This document shows, in pieces, positions 11,845 through 47,051 of a stretch of 64,000 nucleotides of DNA. The DNA is from a virus: the IMG/VR virus record IMGVR_UViG_3300037244_000020, positions 1-64,000 of that record; one strand, 5' to 3'. Every line of letters starts with the position of its first letter. Positions within the stretch are counted from its first letter, which is position 1. Both the position numbers and the translations under genes were made by a program. The notes beneath the pieces are model-generated. The model saw nothing but the letters and a program-made list of their open reading frames with translations, had not been told where the DNA came from and made no database searches.

Positions 11845-13278
11845 TTATTTACCTAACTTGTCGAGCCAGTTGAGCAGTGTGAGCCACTCGCCGAAAGCGT
11901 CGGTCACTCCCTCAGATGACTCGAACCGAAACTCTAGGGACCGCGCAGTCTGGTTTTCCGCGAGCACTGCCCCGCTCATGCCTACCGGGTAGGGAAGGGT
12001 CTTTTCCAGGTGCGCCATAACTTCTTTCTTGCCCGCTGAAAACCCCTTCCAGTATTGGTCAGCCGAATCGCATTGCACAGGTGGCTCCCCTACCACGATG
12101 AACGCGATGCCCGCAGCGGCCGCAACTTCCTCGCAGTCTGCAGGATGGCTCTCGACGTACATCACGCCGCCGCGAGCCGTTGGGCCTGCTTTCCTGAGCG
12201 CCCATTCCGCAGCAGTCTTGACGAGTCGACTGCGATCGCCTCCGGTCCCGCCTGCCGTGCCGACGAAATGGATGCCTGAGGGCGTCACGACCGTGACTTT
12301 GACGGTTTCTGAAACGAATTTTTGCGTTGCACAGTCCTCAGCTTCTTCGGAGGGAGTCGCCTCAGTCCTTTCCTGGTCTTCCGCCTCCTTCAGAATCCAC
12401 GCCCCAAGTCTGCGCGCTTGCGCCTTAGATGGGCACCCGTAGGCCAAAATGTTCAGAGGCGGCAGGCGCCGCTGCGAGGTGCGGACGTACTCGGTAACTG
12501 CCGCGTAGCCCTGCTCCGGGTCGAAGAAAGTCACTGCGGCGCAGTTGCTACGGGTTTCAAGGGTTGCCCGGGGAACCAGCAACTGCAAGCGCATCCACTT
12601 CGCGCATTCCTCGGCCCAAATCTTAGCCGGCGCTTGGTCGTGAAGGAATTGGCCGCCCTCGACAAACGCTGCGCACTCCTCGATCGTCTTGTTGCGCGAC
12701 TCCGTTTCCGCTTTGGTGACTTCCTTACTGAGAACTACGCAACTGTTCATCGCCCGGCTGTAATTCTCCTGCGCCCACTTGAGACGCTTCTCCAAGTCTT
12801 CGACACGGCTGGCCATCTCTGCGCGGGTCTCTATATGCAGCTCATCCGCTGCTCGGAGGAGTTCATGTGCCCACTTCAGATTCGCCTCGGTCTTTCCTAT
12901 CAGGCTTCCGTTGTACAGGACCATCTCTGCCTCACCGCAGGTCGTCGCACCTGACACCTCATCCCGAACAGTGCCGATCTCCGCAGGTGCTGCTGCGGCC
13001 GCCATCTTCATCACCTCGTCCGGCGTCGGCGCGGTGTAGGTGACCTGCGCCCCTCCTGCGCGGTAAGTCACGCTGTAACTGTCAGACTTGAACTCCGCAG
13101 CGTGCCCTTCCGTCGGTGCAGTCGCTTTGTTCAAGATGTCGGCTATCTCTTGGGCTTGTTCGGTGGTGGCGTCGTGGACGAACATAAATACGCCTGCAGG
13201 TCCTAAAATTTCTAGGGTCGCGTCTTTGTCGGTGTCCCGATTTACGATCCAAGGCTTGCTTGTGTCGATAGTTTTCAT
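11845..13278 (-). CDS. 477-aa accessory protein with a tail-tip (J)-like segment
   Basis: The N-terminal third is a small alpha/beta region (TEQAQEIADILNKA), followed by a coiled coil around residues 150-210. Around residues 245-305 lies a stretch with FDPEQGY, TEYV, LNILAYGCPS and QARRLGAWILKE. It aligns with NDPAQQY, TEYV, MQIMAVGTTT and QAYRLGKWMLLSE in the phage's own tail-tip protein at 58703-61930. The C-terminal part contains GTGGDRSRLVKTAAEWALRKAG (quoted in part). The whole is a mosaic with no recognised family. It is cotranscribed with the DUF2528-like gene. Role unknown; interference with tail assembly or adsorption is speculation. Confidence 0.55.
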   Translation of the reverse strand: MKTIDTSKPWIVNRDTDKDATLEILGPAGVFMFVHDATTEQAQEIADILNKATAPTEGHAAEFKSDSYSVTYRAGGAQVTYTAPTPDEVMKMAAAAAPAEIGTVRDEVSGATTCGEAEMVLYNGSLIGKTEANLKWAHELLRAADELHIETRAEMASRVEDLEKRLKWAQENYSRAMNSCVVLSKEVTKAETESRNKTIEECAAFVEGGQFLHDQAPAKIWAEECAKWMRLQLLVPRATLETRSNCAAVTFFDPEQGYAAVTEYVRTSQRRLPPLNILAYGCPSKAQARRLGAWILKEAEDQERTEATPSEEAEDCATQKFVSETVKVTVVTPSGIHFVGTAGGTGGDRSRLVKTAAEWALRKAGPTARGGVMYVESHPADCEEVAAAAGIAFIVVGEPPVQCDSADQYWKGFSAGKKEVMAHLEKTLPYPVGMSGAVLAENQTARSLEFRFESSEGVTDAFGEWLTLLNWLDKLGK

Positions 13279-14661: not shown

Positions 14662-14937
14662 ATGAAACTCTTAGCCGCCCTCCTGCTCGCCCTGCCGATC
14701 GCCGCGCACGCTTACACCCTTTCTGACGATCCGTGGTCAGGCCACACGAGCCACAGCGGTCCTTACACGACCGGACAGTATTCAGACCAAAGCGGCGCTG
14801 CTTTGTCGACGTATTCCTACCGTTCCGGCTCGTCCGACTACTCGCAGAGCACTTACACGGGGTCGGACGGTGTGAGTCACACGCAACACTGTACGACTCA
14901 CATCATCAGCGGCTTTGTCGAGCACACTTGCTACTGA
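14662..14937 (+). CDS. Exported Ser/Tyr/Thr-rich protein, 91 aa
   Basis: MKLLAALLLALPIAAHA is a signal peptide, with GGAGA before the ATG. The mature region is rich in Ser, Tyr, Gly and Thr and ends with two Cys (QHC...HTCY) that could pair. Composition is like the exported proteins at 6670-8529. It ends two bases from the leftward gene at 14939, so the two converge tail to tail. Confidence 0.55.
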   Translation: MKLLAALLLALPIAAHAYTLSDDPWSGHTSHSGPYTTGQYSDQSGAALSTYSYRSGSSDYSQSTYTGSDGVSHTQHCTTHIISGFVEHTCY

Positions 14938-14938
14938 A

Positions 14939-15217
14939 TCACAGGCCCAGCAGCGTGCCCAGTTGCGAGAAAAGTCCTTGCGCTTGCGTGTGCGTATCGA
15001 GCGGAATCAGAATCGAAGGGCCGCTCATGCCTTGGTTCTGAGCGCCGACCACGGGCGTCACCACAACCGGCACCAAGCCTTGTTGCTGTTGTTGTTGCTG
15101 GGTATTGGCCTGGGCTTGCGCCTGGTTGACGGTCTGATTAACCTTGATGCCCGAACCGTCCACGCCGTCCGGGAAGTCAGAGGTGGTGGTGCCGTCGCCT
15201 ACGTCTACGTCTGCCAT
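14939..15217 (-). CDS. Gln-rich hypothetical protein, 92 aa
   Basis: MADVDVGDG is followed by a low-complexity Gln segment (QANTQQQQQQQ) and a hydrophobic end (LFSQLGTLLGL). No signal peptide is seen. It may be cotranscribed with the S53 peptidase upstream, 68 bases away. The function is unknown. Confidence 0.5.
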   Translation of the reverse strand: MADVDVGDGTTTSDFPDGVDGSGIKVNQTVNQAQAQANTQQQQQQQGLVPVVVTPVVGAQNQGMSGPSILIPLDTHTQAQGLFSQLGTLLGL

Positions 15218-15285: not shown

Positions 15286-16878
15286 TTACTTCAACAAAGC
15301 CTGTAGGCGCTTCCCGTCTGGTCGCCCCACCCCCGTACTTGCCGACCAGCCCGCTGCCGCTGCGAAATACCCGTTGTTGCCTTCCGTAATCGGCACAAAG
15401 TGCGCAGCGCCTTTGTAAATCGCCGGGTGCATAAACCCTGCTGGCTTCCGGTTTAGCGCGTTTATCCGGGCAACGAGCGCAGCCATCAACGGGGCGACCG
15501 CGCTCGTTCCGCCGATCACGTCCATCACGCCATTGACCATCACCAGATAGCCGGTGTTCGGGTCAGCGTTGCCCGTCAAGTCCGGCGCGCCGCGCATCGT
15601 GAGAGGCTCGGTGCCCCCGGCCGTAAGCGCGACTTTCAGGCCGTGCTGGTAAGTCGGCAGAGGGAAGACCGTGCTGATACCTCCGCCTGTTGCGCCGCCT
15701 TGGCCGGTCTCTTGATTGTTCCAGACCGTCTCTTTCGCGACCTGCTCGCCCATCGCGTGAACGGTTGTGCCGCCGCAGCCAACGACCCAGGGGCTGCTCG
15801 ACGGAAAGTCAGCGTGCTGGCGCCCGTCTGTCAGGCCGTCTGTCGACCCGTTGTCGCCTGCCGCCGCGAAGACCGTCACGCCCATGGCGGCGGCCGCCTG
15901 CAGTGCGCGATTCATCGCGGTCATCGCTTCTTTCGTCCACAAGACCTCAGGCGCTCCCCAGCTAATCGAGATGACGGACGGCTTATTGATCGTGTCATAG
16001 ACGGCCGCATTGATCGCGTCGAGAAACCCCTGATCCGTGTTCGGCGCGAAATAGACCGCGATACGCGCTCCTTGCGCGAGCGCGCCGATGACTTGAATGT
16101 CGAGCGCCACCTCCCCGTCGGCGCCACTATCCGCACCGCCTGGGCTGTTGCTCGCGTGGTCGATCGACACCGGGACGATATCCGGCACATCCAGCCCCAA
16201 CTCAGCGAAGTAGGCCCGGTTGTCTGCTGGCATATACCCGCCGCCCAACTCGATGATGCCCACACACTCTCCGGCGCCGATGCTGTCCGGGAAGTTGTAG
16301 AGCGCTGCGAACTCATTGGGCGCGAAGTAGGCTGTCTGCGCCTTCACCGCCTTCGGGCCGATGCGCTGCGCCAAGCTGGGCGACTGTACTGTTCGGTTGA
16401 CTATATGGTGGGTCTCGCTGGCGGGTCGCGTGTCCAAACCCACGACCGCCTCCACAATGCCGTGCAGGCTCTCGGGCACCGTCGCGGCTTCCGTGACGCC
16501 TCGATATGTGCCCTGCGGATAGGCAAAGCGGTGCATCTTCACGTCAAACGCGTTCTCGAATTGCGCAGCGGTGCCTGTCAAATGGATCGTCGCCCGCGCG
16601 ACATTCTCATCAATCACGTTCAAGCCGTATTCGCTCGCGAACTGCTTGACCTTTGCGCGGTCTTCGTTGGTCGCGCCGAACACGCGCGTGAATTCAGCGC
16701 GGGAGAGCGTCGGCTGCGATCGATCGCCCTCCGCCATTTTTTCCGTGATCTGGTCCAGCAGCGCCTGATTGTTTCGGCGCAGTACCAGCGACACTTCCAT
16801 ACGCTCGGCGGGGTCTACCGGACCTGTCGCCTCAGCGCCCCGGAAGGAAGGGCGCGCGTCGCCCAGTTTGATCCTCAT
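15286..16878 (-). CDS. S53 family (kumamolisin-like sedolisin) serine-carboxyl peptidase, 530 aa
   Basis: Residues 25-165 match a pro-kumamolisin activation domain (SRAEFTRVFGA, IHLTGTAAQFENAF). The catalytic domain has the sedolisin triad: Glu256 and Asp260 in GEVALD, the oxyanion Asp342 in AAAGDNG, and Ser459 in IGGTSAVAP. The Asp260-Asp342 spacing of 82 is the same as I recall for kumamolisin. In the C-terminal calcium loop the usual Asp residues appear as Pro496 (VPITEGNNG) and Ser512 (AGWSAS), so the site is altered. No signal peptide is present. Such enzymes cleave proteins at acidic pH after self-processing. ATG 16878 has GGGGAT in front. Its role in a phage is unknown. Confidence 0.9.
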   Translation of the reverse strand: MRIKLGDARPSFRGAEATGPVDPAERMEVSLVLRRNNQALLDQITEKMAEGDRSQPTLSRAEFTRVFGATNEDRAKVKQFASEYGLNVIDENVARATIHLTGTAAQFENAFDVKMHRFAYPQGTYRGVTEAATVPESLHGIVEAVVGLDTRPASETHHIVNRTVQSPSLAQRIGPKAVKAQTAYFAPNEFAALYNFPDSIGAGECVGIIELGGGYMPADNRAYFAELGLDVPDIVPVSIDHASNSPGGADSGADGEVALDIQVIGALAQGARIAVYFAPNTDQGFLDAINAAVYDTINKPSVISISWGAPEVLWTKEAMTAMNRALQAAAAMGVTVFAAAGDNGSTDGLTDGRQHADFPSSSPWVVGCGGTTVHAMGEQVAKETVWNNQETGQGGATGGGISTVFPLPTYQHGLKVALTAGGTEPLTMRGAPDLTGNADPNTGYLVMVNGVMDVIGGTSAVAPLMAALVARINALNRKPAGFMHPAIYKGAAHFVPITEGNNGYFAAAAGWSASTGVGRPDGKRLQALLK

Positions 16879-16895: not shown

Positions 16896-17192
16896 TCAGA
16901 CGGTGCCGTTCATGCCTAGGAAGACGCGTAGTTCCTTGACGTCGTTTGCGAGCAGGTTGCGCGCGTTGTCCAGGCTCGTCTGAAAATCCAACAGCAGGTT
17001 CTTTTCCAGCGTCTCTAGCCGACCTTCCATCACGTTGAGCAGCGCCTTAACAGCCTGCGCGCTGGCGGCTGAGATTGTTACGACAGGCTCCTCAGCGACG
17101 GCGACAGGCTCCGTGCGGTCTGTGCCGGGGTTCACGCCTAGCGGTGCTGCGGGTAATGCGACAGGGGAAGCGTTCGGGGCGAAATCGGGCAT
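16896..17192 (-). CDS. Hypothetical protein, 98 aa, helical C-terminus
   Basis: ATG 17192 has GGAACC upstream. The first half is Pro/Ala/Val-rich and probably disordered; the second half is a helix (LLNVMEGRLETLEKNLLLD). The same layout recurs in the 88-aa gene at 18359. It lies 18 bases before the S53 gene and probably shares its mRNA. Confidence 0.5.
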   Translation of the reverse strand: MPDFAPNASPVALPAAPLGVNPGTDRTEPVAVAEEPVVTISAASAQAVKALLNVMEGRLETLEKNLLLDFQTSLDNARNLLANDVKELRVFLGMNGTV

Positions 17193-17211
17193 GGCGGGTT
17201 CCAATGAGAAA

Positions 17212-17232
17212 GACCGGGCTATGCGCCCGGTC
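17212..17232 (-). terminator. Hairpin in the leader of the 98-aa/S53 transcript
   Basis: On the minus strand GACCGGGC pairs with GCCCGGTC around 5 nt and is followed by TTTCTC. It sits between a possible TATGAT -10 and the gene start, so it could be an attenuator for the S53 transcript rather than an end-of-operon terminator. Confidence 0.45.
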
Positions 17233-17328
17233 CATTATCATAACCCGCCGTCAGACGAATCCGACGCTTACGCCGTATGACGAAATGTAGCTTACCTCGT
17301 CTCCTGTATCGGGTATCCTGCCCTGCTT

Positions 17329-19893: not shown

Positions 19894-21192
19894 TTAAACC
19901 GCTTCGAACATTTCCGGCACGATCGTATTCCGGGCGACTTCCCCGAACTCCGTGTGGTAAGTGATCGCCTGCGCGCTGCGCTCCGATACGTAGCCGCCCC
20001 GCGCTGAGTGGGCATCCCGCGCAGCTAGTGTGCGGTGCTGCACAACCGTGACGCCGTTGTGCTCTTTTTCGTCCTTATGATGCCGATGTCCCGTGTGGAT
20101 TGCGCGCTTGGTCGTCTTGCCCCACATCTCGGGAAACTGCGCCGCGAAGAGCAGCGGCAGTTGCTCGTTTTTCTTCAAATGCCCGTGGTGGAAACCCAGC
20201 ATGCTCGTACCGTGTTGATACGCGTAGTAAGGCAATTCCGAGTCTACGACGGTAATCCTCGGCTCGTTCTCGTACAGCGCTCGGAAAAGCGCCCTCAGCC
20301 ACAGCGACGACGCGAGATCATGATTTCCCTCCGCAAGGAGAACGACAACTTTGTCGTGTCTGGCGAGCGCGAAGTCCACAAGGCGGCGCAGCACCCGAAT
20401 GGCGACGCCTACAATCTTCGAATACCGCCCGTCTGCGTCCAAAACGAAACCGTGCGTCGGCGTTACGGGCAGCAGTCCATCGAAGTGTAGGAAGTCGCCG
20501 AGTTGCGCAATAAACGCGGTGCTGGCGGCGGGCGCCGCGTCAATCATGTACGAAAAAGCATTGACGAGCGTTCTTTCCGCAATTTCCAGGCTCCAGTCTG
20601 CGCCTGTTTCGGCTTTATCCGCGAGCGCGCCGAGGTGGTAGTCCGTGAACGTGTACAGGTTGCACAGCGTCTCGCTCGTATGCTCGGGAGCCTTTGTCGG
20701 TTTTAGCTTCGGTAGTGTCTGCGCCATCGCGTCGAACGCCTCGCGCATGATGGCTTCCTGCGCTGCCTGGTCGGCCGTCGTCTTCACCCACTGCGCTGTC
20801 GGCTTGCCGTCTTCGTTGTAATAGGTCGACACGCCCTTAACGACAAACCCATCGGGAACGGTATGCACCATATCGTGACTCGGCGCGTGCCCCATCCTAG
20901 CAGCGCGCTTTTTCAACGAATCCAGCGAGTTGCAGATCGTCCCTACACTGATCTTGAGCGCGCCCGCTGCAGCCCTCATGCCTCCGTGCTTCTCGACCGC
21001 CTCGATGATTTCGATTTGGCGCACAGTCGCAAATTGGATAAGCTCGGAGAGACCCTCTGGCGCATCCGAGCGAGTCGCGTCGCCCTTCATGTGGCGGCGT
21101 ACCGTCGCCTCGTCAACGCCCAATGCTTTGGCTGCTGCGCGGAAACTGCCGTGCTCGGCTACGGCATCTTGAAACTTCTTGAGTTTTGTCAC
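19894..21192 (-). CDS. Metallophosphoesterase with two N-terminal HTH motifs, 432 aa
   Basis: It starts at GTG 21192. Two HTH-like segments (GSFRAAAKALGVDEATVRRHM and GGMRAAAGALKISVGTICNS, each given in part) occupy residues 1-95. The rest is a calcineurin-like phosphoesterase: TDYHLG, QLGDFLHFDG, EGNHD, GFHHGHL and HTGHRHH supply the metal ligands. This is the SbcD-like fold used by DNA exonucleases and phosphatases. The HTH-MPE fusion suggests a DNA-targeted nuclease or regulator. A promoter at 21237-21265 precedes it. Confidence 0.8.
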   Translation of the reverse strand: MTKLKKFQDAVAEHGSFRAAAKALGVDEATVRRHMKGDATRSDAPEGLSELIQFATVRQIEIIEAVEKHGGMRAAAGALKISVGTICNSLDSLKKRAARMGHAPSHDMVHTVPDGFVVKGVSTYYNEDGKPTAQWVKTTADQAAQEAIMREAFDAMAQTLPKLKPTKAPEHTSETLCNLYTFTDYHLGALADKAETGADWSLEIAERTLVNAFSYMIDAAPAASTAFIAQLGDFLHFDGLLPVTPTHGFVLDADGRYSKIVGVAIRVLRRLVDFALARHDKVVVLLAEGNHDLASSLWLRALFRALYENEPRITVVDSELPYYAYQHGTSMLGFHHGHLKKNEQLPLLFAAQFPEMWGKTTKRAIHTGHRHHKDEKEHNGVTVVQHRTLAARDAHSARGGYVSERSAQAITYHTEFGEVARNTIVPEMFEAV

Positions 21193-38983: not shown

Positions 38984-39060
38984 GTCATTCCCGAAAAGCT
39001 GGCTATCCACCGGCCTGACGTGTCTCCTCAGTGGATATCGATTGGGAAATCGGGAATGAC
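38984..39060 (+). promoter_or_regulatory. RNA hairpin enclosing the GIY-YIG start codon
   Basis: GTCATTCCCGA (38984-38994) pairs with TCGGGAATGAC (39050-39060), which contains the ATG and the GGGA ribosome site. An inner stem pairs TATCCAC (39004-39010) with GTGGATA (39031-39037). Folded RNA would block translation, as is known for several phage homing endonuclease genes. Confidence 0.7.
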
Positions 39061-39907
39061 AGACCAGACAAACTGGCCCAAACGCGGTGACGGCATTTGT
39101 GGCATCTACGCGATTGAAAATCTCATCGACGGGAAGTTCTACGTCGGGCAGTCTGCGGACATGAGATCAAGGTGGGACGTTCACCTTTATATGCTCAGAA
39201 AAGGAACGGCGAGCACGAAATTGTTGCGCGCATGGCGAAAGCACGGTGCGGAGAATTTCAGGTTCTTTGCCGTGGAAGAATGCTCAGTCGAAGATCTTAC
39301 AGCGCGAGAGCAAGCGTGGATCGACACGTTCGACGCTGTGAAGAAGGGCTACAATATCAGTCCCTTGGCGAATTGCACGCGCGGGGTGAAGCACACGGCC
39401 GAGGCCCGCGCTAACATGTCAAAGGCGCAACTTGAGATAAACTCACGCCCCGGCGCAAAGGAGCGACGAGTAGCTGTGGCAACGAAGGCTTGGGAAGACC
39501 CGGATGCTTTAGCCCGAAAGAGCGCGGCCAGCAAGAAATCAAGGAACAAGCCAGAGGCAAAGGCCAGGCAATCCAAGGTATCAAAGGACCAGTGGGCAGA
39601 CCCGGAAGGCAGGGAGCGTCGTCTGGATGCCTTAGTAAAGTGGTGGGCAGACCCTGACGCGAAAGCTAGTAGGCTAATGCTCCTGCAGAGTGGACGCACC
39701 CCAGAGGTAGAGGCGCAAAGGAAGGAGGCCGCAAAGGCAGCGAGGAGAGCCAGTGCGATCCTCGCTGTGGAAGACGTCTTGGAGATCCGCGCCAGATACG
39801 TATTCCGATGTCCGGCAAATGGAGGGAAAGCACTCGCAAAGGAGTTCGGAGTGTCCAACACGTACATCAGCAACATTATCGTGCGAAAGGTTTGGAAGGA
39901 CATCTAA
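39056..39907 (+). CDS. GIY-YIG homing endonuclease with NUMOD3 repeats, 283 aa
   Basis: From ATG 39056, GICGIYAIENLIDGKFYVGQ is the GIY-YIG catalytic start, with R near SRWDVH and E in TAREQAWIDTF as other active residues. KHTAEARANMSKAQ is a NUMOD3-type segment. Repeated ADPEGRERR/WADPDAKASR helices and a C-terminal HTH (LAKEFGVSNTYISNIIVRK) give target recognition. It lies directly before terL, which is interrupted by a hairpin insert at 40020-40076. Earlier ATG start is unlikely because the hairpin controls 39056. Confidence 0.9.
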   Translation: MTDQTNWPKRGDGICGIYAIENLIDGKFYVGQSADMRSRWDVHLYMLRKGTASTKLLRAWRKHGAENFRFFAVEECSVEDLTAREQAWIDTFDAVKKGYNISPLANCTRGVKHTAEARANMSKAQLEINSRPGAKERRVAVATKAWEDPDALARKSAASKKSRNKPEAKARQSKVSKDQWADPEGRERRLDALVKWWADPDAKASRLMLLQSGRTPEVEAQRKEAAKAARRASAILAVEDVLEIRARYVFRCPANGGKALAKEFGVSNTYISNIIVRKVWKDI

Positions 39908-46214: not shown

Positions 46215-47051
46215 GTGAACTACCAGAAGCATTACGATACGCTGATCGATCGCGCCCGAAACCGTAAGCTTTCAGGGTATAAGGAACGCCATCACGTCAT
46301 CCCTCGCTGTATGGGCGGGAGCGATGACAAGTCAAATCTTGTGGAGTTGCTGGCGGAAGAGCATTTCGTGGGCCATCTTCTGTTGGCGCGCATCCACCCG
46401 GAAAACAGAAAGTTGGTGTTCGCTGCGAACATGATGCTGATGAACAGCCCGATGCATCATGGCGCTCGATCCAGGAACAAGAGGCATGCGTGGCTTAGAA
46501 AGGCACACGCCGAGGCAGCAAGAGCTACGCATCTAGGAGTTCCAAAGTCCCCTGAACACGTCGCCAAGGTAAGCCGGGCATTGACGGGTAAGCCAGGAAC
46601 GCGGCGAGGGGCGGTCACTGCGGAGGAAACCAAGGCGAAGCAGTCCGCAGCAGCCTTCGCTAGACCTGACAAGGCTGAAAATGACGAGAAGATGCGGGAA
46701 GGCTACGCAAGGATGACGCCACAGGAGCGTACGGCGCAGGCGGGTAAGGCATGGGATACAAAGCGCGCCAACGGGAAAGATAGGGACACGCCAGAGACGA
46801 GGGCCAAGAAAAGCACGGCGGGCAGGGAGCGCTCTCAGAGAGAAACCTCAGAGGAGAAAACCGCCCGAGCTTTGAAGGCTGCAGAGTCACGCCGCCGTAA
46901 CGGAAGTGACAAAGCTACGCCTGAATCCCGAGAGCGTATGCGCCAAGCCCATCTCGGGAAGAAACAATCCTTGGAAACCGTCGCCAAACGTAAAGCCACT
47001 ATAGCACGCAATAAAGCGCTCAAGGCTGTTACAATGCCGGAAAACACCTGA
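46215..47051 (+). CDS. HNH-type homing endonuclease with NUMOD3-like repeats, 278 aa
   Basis: GTG 46215 with GAGGATT upstream. YKERHHVIPRCMGGSDDKSN followed by LLAEEHFVGHLLL is the HNH core with zinc-free H-H..N..H. LGVPKSPEHVAKVSRALTGK and MRQAHLGKKQSLETVAKRKA are NUMOD3-type repeats. It lies between the coat gene and the 61-aa gene. CTCATTC/GAATGAG at 46163-46206 could fold near its ribosome site. Confidence 0.85.
   Translation: MNYQKHYDTLIDRARNRKLSGYKERHHVIPRCMGGSDDKSNLVELLAEEHFVGHLLLARIHPENRKLVFAANMMLMNSPMHHGARSRNKRHAWLRKAHAEAARATHLGVPKSPEHVAKVSRALTGKPGTRRGAVTAEETKAKQSAAAFARPDKAENDEKMREGYARMTPQERTAQAGKAWDTKRANGKDRDTPETRAKKSTAGRERSQRETSEEKTARALKAAESRRRNGSDKATPESRERMRQAHLGKKQSLETVAKRKATIARNKALKAVTMPENT

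Follow-up and report, generated by a model that had tools for sequence, protein, structure and literature searches.

The characterized S53 peptidases, kumamolisin, sedolisin and TPP1, shed a prodomain and act in acid. The family is defined by a homologous catalytic domain, and a C-terminal calcium site is widely conserved among its members. In kumamolisin, the calcium ligands are D316 and D338 together with the backbone oxygens of I317, G334 and G336. Human TPP1 is the enzyme lost in CLN2 disease. Its calcium is held by D517, D543, V518, G539 and G541, and beside this site lies a hydrogen-bond set that the enzyme needs, formed by R447, D451, Y508 and W542 (PMC2914745). Autoprocessing of pro-TPP1 requires calcium, as chelation blocks the zymogen step, and the activity of the mature enzyme is insensitive to EDTA (PMC2914745).

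Here, an S53 gene is described from a window of 64,000 bases, which corresponds to bases 1-64000 of a 90,837-bp IMG/VR record. The gene encodes a full pro-kumamolisin within a complete phage genome, whereas the 50,697 catalogued phage records yielded no S53 gene with any of three different queries. The literature searched contained no report of a sedolisin from a phage. That the product is an S53 enzyme of the kumamolisin type, and that its gene originates from the phage, we regard as close to certain. Both aspartates of its calcium site are replaced. If the enzyme is active without calcium, it would provide a natural test of whether the conserved S53 site serves zymogen processing or stability, a question that bears on TPP1.

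The peptidase gene and its product

The gene starts with ATG, lies 6 nt downstream of an AGGGG Shine-Dalgarno sequence and maintains an uninterrupted frame of 530 aa (Table 1). The encoded protein comprises a prodomain (aa ~15-150), a flexible linker (~155-180) and a catalytic domain (~181-530). In Pfam, Pro-kuma_activ (PF09286), a prodomain usual among S53 enzymes, matches aa 15-150 with an E-value of 6.7e-24 and 85 bits (cut-off 23.5), and Peptidase_S8, which has the subtilase fold, matches aa 264-478. Among proteins of solved structure, the best match is to intact pro-kumamolisin (1T1E), which covers aa 5-529 at an E-value of 2.8e-132; kumamolisin-As comes next. The score against kumamolisin is 445 bits, compared with 92 against sedolisin and 63 against TPP1. 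The Ser-Glu-Asp triad (E256, D260 and S459, with the GGTS motif) and the oxyanion residue D342 are all present, as is the auxiliary Glu-Trp pair E210/W307, which is E32 and W129 in kumamolisin; the same six residues occur in 80 of 80 close cellular relatives. Judged by the Glu-Trp pair and by these scores, which are highest against kumamolisin, the product is a member of the kumamolisin subfamily. The S53 assignment, the propeptide and the full set of catalytic residues claimed in the original prediction are thereby borne out.

The window protein was modeled with AlphaFold (AF2), with 41 relatives as further input. The mean pLDDT is 91.7, and the main low-confidence region of the model is the linker between the prodomain and the catalytic domain (~161-180). 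Superposition on 1T1E places the model in the S53 fold (TM 0.93/0.92, with 45% identity in the structure alignment), and the prodomain is predicted to dock on a catalytic domain with an intact triad.

The N-terminus of the window protein lacks a hydrophobic segment (the best mean over 11 residues is -0.65), in agreement with the earlier claim that a signal peptide is missing. The accompanying suggestion that this hints at a special intracellular or packaged role did not survive comparison: in a crude hydrophobicity test, a signal-like N-terminus was found in none of ~92 prodomain-bearing relatives, one misextended frame aside. The absence is therefore a family trait, and its interpretation as a phage adaptation was rejected.

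In a tree of catalytic domains, viral S53 proteins form clades apart from the cellular enzymes, and the window protein groups with 80 cellular proteins and kumamolisin. It occupies a lone branch of 0.46-0.71 changes per site, its place within the cellular-type clade was not settled by the trees, and the nearest cellular protein is ~52% identical to it. A clade uniting the window protein with L005 and L009 (SH-aLRT 96, catalytic-domain tree) did not recur when near-full-length columns were used and the calcium loop was omitted; attraction to the long branch of L009 may have produced it. Bearing a prodomain and falling with cellular proteins, the window protein lies outside the prodomain-less viral sedolisins of IMG/VR. 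Since the viral clades are separate and the window protein is of the cellular type, S53 enzymes seem to have been acquired by viruses more than once.

Genomic context

The first and last 127 bp of the record are identical, indicating a circular, complete assembly, and a primase-like gene spans the junction. The record encodes small and large terminase subunits, a portal, a head morphogenesis protein, a major head protein, a tape measure protein and a J fibre. An endolysin and an Rz-like spanin lie at 66.9-68.2 kb of the record. A PolA-type polymerase, a ThyX-like protein, a ligase, an SbcCD-like pair and a RecD-like helicase were recognized from translations read by eye, and no tyrosine integrase was recognized in the record.

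The peptidase gene belongs to a minus-strand block of replication and recombination genes (exonuclease, helicase, primase) outside the late and lysis block, a location that fits early or middle expression at least as well as late expression. Its surroundings include an HNH endonuclease, a J-like tail fragment, a P63C/phrog_2384 gene and the phrog_704 exonuclease. Codon usage correlates with that of the phage core genes (r=0.92) and GC3 is 0.77, inside the core range; by codon usage, the peptidase is a resident phage gene.

The gene upstream of the peptidase has no family match and is probably co-transcribed with it. Beyond it stands a terminator-like hairpin, of a kind whose regional frequency is only slightly above that in shuffled sequence. 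On the downstream side, a Q-rich motif of 31 aa in the 92-aa protein recurs at 68% identity (E 2e-9) in a late-region protein of 348 aa, encoded at record 68594-69640(+); neither protein has a family match. The convergent 91-aa ORF is a doubtful part of the peptidase operon.

Table 1. Features in and around the peptidase gene, in window positions.
Feature	Position	Strand	Remarks
S53 pro-kumamolisin-type endopeptidase gene	15286..16878	-	530 aa; basis: ORF, Pfam, 1T1E alignment, AlphaFold model
Codons of former calcium loop	15340..15393	-	aa 496-513 (P496 I497 ... G510 W511 S512 A513); basis: alignment
Upstream gene	16896..17192	-	98 aa from ATG; 17-nt gap to peptidase gene; Pro/Ala-rich N-terminus, helical-looking C-terminus
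Terminator-like hairpin	17211..17233	-	GGACCGGGCGCATAGCCCGGTCT, then T-rich bases; upstream of the 98-aa gene
Exonuclease (phrog_704) gene	19894-21192	-	same strand and block as peptidase gene
Downstream gene	14939..15217	-	92 aa, Q-rich; directly 3' of peptidase gene
Convergent ORF	14662..14937	+	91 aa; signal-peptide-like N-terminus (MKLLAALLLALPIAAHA), good Shine-Dalgarno

The sole close relative found for the phage is a 4.9-kb contig (L142) with a head module (portal 79%). The exonuclease has many homologs, with neither synteny nor a sedolisin there, and no related phage carrying the peptidase gene was found.

Several other features of the genome were recorded. A pair of genes is duplicated at 26001-26444/28174-28602 (56% identity) and 26811-27134/28703-29005 (61%). 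In the minus-strand block, a 477-aa protein (11845-13278(-)) contains a 58-aa stretch with a match (36%) to the J tail protein of this phage and is otherwise unlike tail proteins. Three homing-endonuclease-like genes, partly interrelated, are present at window positions 39020-39907 and 46215-47051 and at record positions 74487-75422, one of them between the terminase subunit genes.

The calcium site

In the alignment, D316, I317, G334, G336 and D338 of kumamolisin correspond to P496, I497, A508, G510 and S512 of the peptidase. The substitution of Pro496 and Ser512 for the two aspartate ligands, on which the original prediction was centered, is thus upheld, and the window protein, missing the two-Asp C-terminal Ca2+ site, is called a variant of S53. 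The former calcium loop is modeled at pLDDT 92-95. The hydrogen-bond set of TPP1 corresponds by motif to R429, D433, Y488 and W511, all four of which are present.

Both aspartates are kept in 133 of the 136 relatives in which both positions are readable, a proportion that applies to relatives picked by similarity to the window query and is not a whole-family rate. By origin, the pair is found in 80/80 cellular, 8/9 plasmid and 45/47 viral proteins. The exceptions are a Rhizobium plasmid protein (L009), with S/S, and a viral pair (L051/L053); these proteins still carry the Ser-Glu-Asp triad. In the viral pair, a four-residue deletion shortened the calcium loop and the aspartates became K/L, a separate loss of the site. 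An apparent second proline at the first ligand, in L116, was rejected as an alignment shift, as the aspartate is there. The losses in L009 and L051/L053 qualify the uniqueness of the window variant, in which the change is, on these alignments, specific and rare rather than unique.

An otherwise intact enzyme without its calcium site suggests calcium independence, given that calcium in TPP1 serves zymogen autoprocessing. By this analogy, the window enzyme is likely calcium-independent or altered in activation, although loss of both carboxylates could instead impair activation.

S53 enzymes in other viruses

Sedolisins had been called rare in phages. The claim stands for catalogued phages, as the queries above found none, and it is incomplete for uncultivated viruses: an alignment query of IMG/VR recovered 49 loci encoding S53 enzymes, so that at least this number exist there, mostly without a prodomain. 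Scanning the viral and genome collections with a single sequence gave no S53 match, in contrast to scans with an alignment, and in BFVD, S53 enzymes occur only in giant viruses, the phages showing subtilases. A Pro-kuma_activ match is absent anywhere in 42 of the 45 IMG/VR S53 records tested. In most of the prodomain-less proteins, a short stretch of a few tens of residues precedes the catalytic domain, many viral S53 proteins carry a Pro/Thr-rich C-terminal tail, and the catalytic residues are intact across the set (most of L014-L061).

Terminase or portal, within the three families searched, is present in 20 of 43 S53 virus records, and it is on these genes that phage status rests. In two records (L027 and L049) the S53 gene is flanked by tail genes on one side and endolysin genes on the other; in a third (L041) its neighbor is a minor tail gene. 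L056 and L057 are terminase-bearing phage contigs whose S53 protein has a partial Pro-kuma_activ match. A 214-kb contig with a full-length S53 protein (L013) was set aside as a phage relative, having no terminase or portal by the three families and neighbors without assignment. The S53 gene at L055:9938-12355 is split by an insertion of ~365 aa that resembles an intein and includes a LAGLIDADG domain (PF14528, E 6.9e-8); the insertion sits inside the catalytic domain between the equivalents of E256/D260 and that of D342. The survey points to a broader group of phage sedolisins lacking a prodomain among uncultivated viruses, which may have a role in lysis or infection.

Possible roles of the phage enzyme

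The reading that is tentatively preferred, though we would hesitate to call it probable, is that of a calcium-independent, acid-activated kumamolisin zymogen of a complete tailed phage, released at lysis. The activity, pH, calcium dependence and location of the peptidase, as we infer them, would be as follows. The protein, having no signal peptide, would fold into an inactive precursor within the cytoplasm of the host, like its bacterial relatives. It would need no calcium, the loop fold and the R429-D433-Y488-W511 set being kept in the model. Lysis of the cell by the phage would release the zymogen, acid surroundings would trigger self-removal of the prodomain, and the freed enzyme may then digest outside proteins such as cell debris, neighboring cell surfaces or matrix. 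Action after lysis is favored over action during infection because the cytoplasm is neutral and the prodomain is retained. A structural role appears less likely because the gene is away from the late block and the protein lacks a C-terminal tail.

These two arguments bear on the nearest competing explanations. The enzyme or its operon partners might be packaged in or attached to the virion, aiding adsorption or penetration through protein layers. The 31-aa motif of the downstream 92-aa protein, which recurs in a protein whose gene immediately follows the lysis cassette, points weakly to the virion, and the placement of S53 genes beside tail, endolysin or minor tail genes in three other records, together with the Pro/Thr-rich tails of many viral enzymes, agrees with this proposal. 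However, the window gene is ~20 kb from the structural block and on the opposite strand, its product is of the cellular prodomain type, outside the viral clades, and removal of the prodomain would have to occur on the particle; a virion-associated protease is therefore considered unlikely. Similarly unlikely is a protease acting inside the cell during infection, in host takeover or against defense. Such a role would suit a gene that shares a strand and block with exonuclease, helicase and primase genes and whose product has no export signal, and a cytoplasm poor in calcium would fit with loss of the calcium site. Against this, the characterized S53 enzymes work in acid once the prodomain is gone, whereas the cytoplasm is near neutral and the prodomain is retained here, and the bacterial relatives equally have no signal peptide.

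It is also conceivable, if quite improbable, that loss of the calcium ligands reduced the enzyme to a degenerate form with little or no activity, either in the course of being lost or retained solely for binding. Both carboxylates are lost, the branch is isolated and fairly long, and autocatalysis of pro-TPP1 needs calcium (PMC2914745). Yet the frame is open over 530 aa, the catalytic residues and the W-Y-D-R set are intact, the predicted fold is confident, the other calcium-site losses also kept the triad, and EDTA leaves the activity of mature TPP1 unaffected (PMC2914745). Hardest to credit is host DNA or an assembly chimera, although the protein belongs to the cellular type and no phage relative carries it at the same locus. 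The original prediction had named a prophage boundary with host DNA as the finding that would overturn it. Instead, the record is complete with identical 127-bp ends, hallmark phage genes lie on both sides of the peptidase gene and phage genes flank it, no tyrosine integrase was recognized, codon usage and GC3 match the phage core, and even the nearest cellular protein is only ~52% identical; a host origin or prophage edge was rejected on these grounds, and the claim of phage encoding holds.

The preferred reading, release of a zymogen at lysis, can be extended to a broader and more doubtful proposal. Tailed phages, probably of acidic environments, would constitute an unrecognized S53 reservoir repeatedly taken from bacteria, in which the window enzyme would be a calcium-independent, acid-triggered zymogen that acts during lysis or later, and most of the other enzymes, those without a prodomain, would be linked to tails or lysis.

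Comparison with known S53 enzymes

The window protein most resembles pro-kumamolisin and kumamolisin-As (1T1E, 1GT9, 1SIO), with which it shares the succession of prodomain, linker and catalytic domain and all catalytic residues. It differs from them in being phage-encoded, in lacking both calcium-binding aspartates and in a calcium loop six residues shorter, a shortening common to many bacterial relatives. Bacterial kumamolisin-like enzymes from Burkholderiaceae, Acidobacteriota and proteobacterial MAGs (L062-L141) have the same architecture at ~46-53% identity, likewise with no signal peptide, but they are encoded by cellular genes and all 80 keep the aspartate pair.

Among viruses, most S53 contigs (most of L014-L061) have a similar catalytic domain and residues. 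They differ in the missing prodomain (42/45), in forming separate clades, in mostly keeping the calcium aspartates and in often carrying a Pro/Thr-rich C-terminal tail. L056 and L057 are likewise phage S53 enzymes with a partial prodomain match; unlike the window protein, to which they are ~33% identical, they have Cys at the E210 position, keep the calcium aspartates and lie on a very long separate branch. The giant-virus enzymes (Homavirus, Barrevirus; BFVD) are alike in prodomain and catalytic fold (TM 0.82), but they are longer proteins of viruses of eukaryotes with 33% identity. Human TPP1 (3EDY, 3EE6) shares the fold, the Ser-Glu-Asp chemistry, the prodomain and, by motif, the W-Y-D-R set. 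It differs as a tripeptidyl exopeptidase whose D517/D543 calcium site is intact and needed for zymogen processing.
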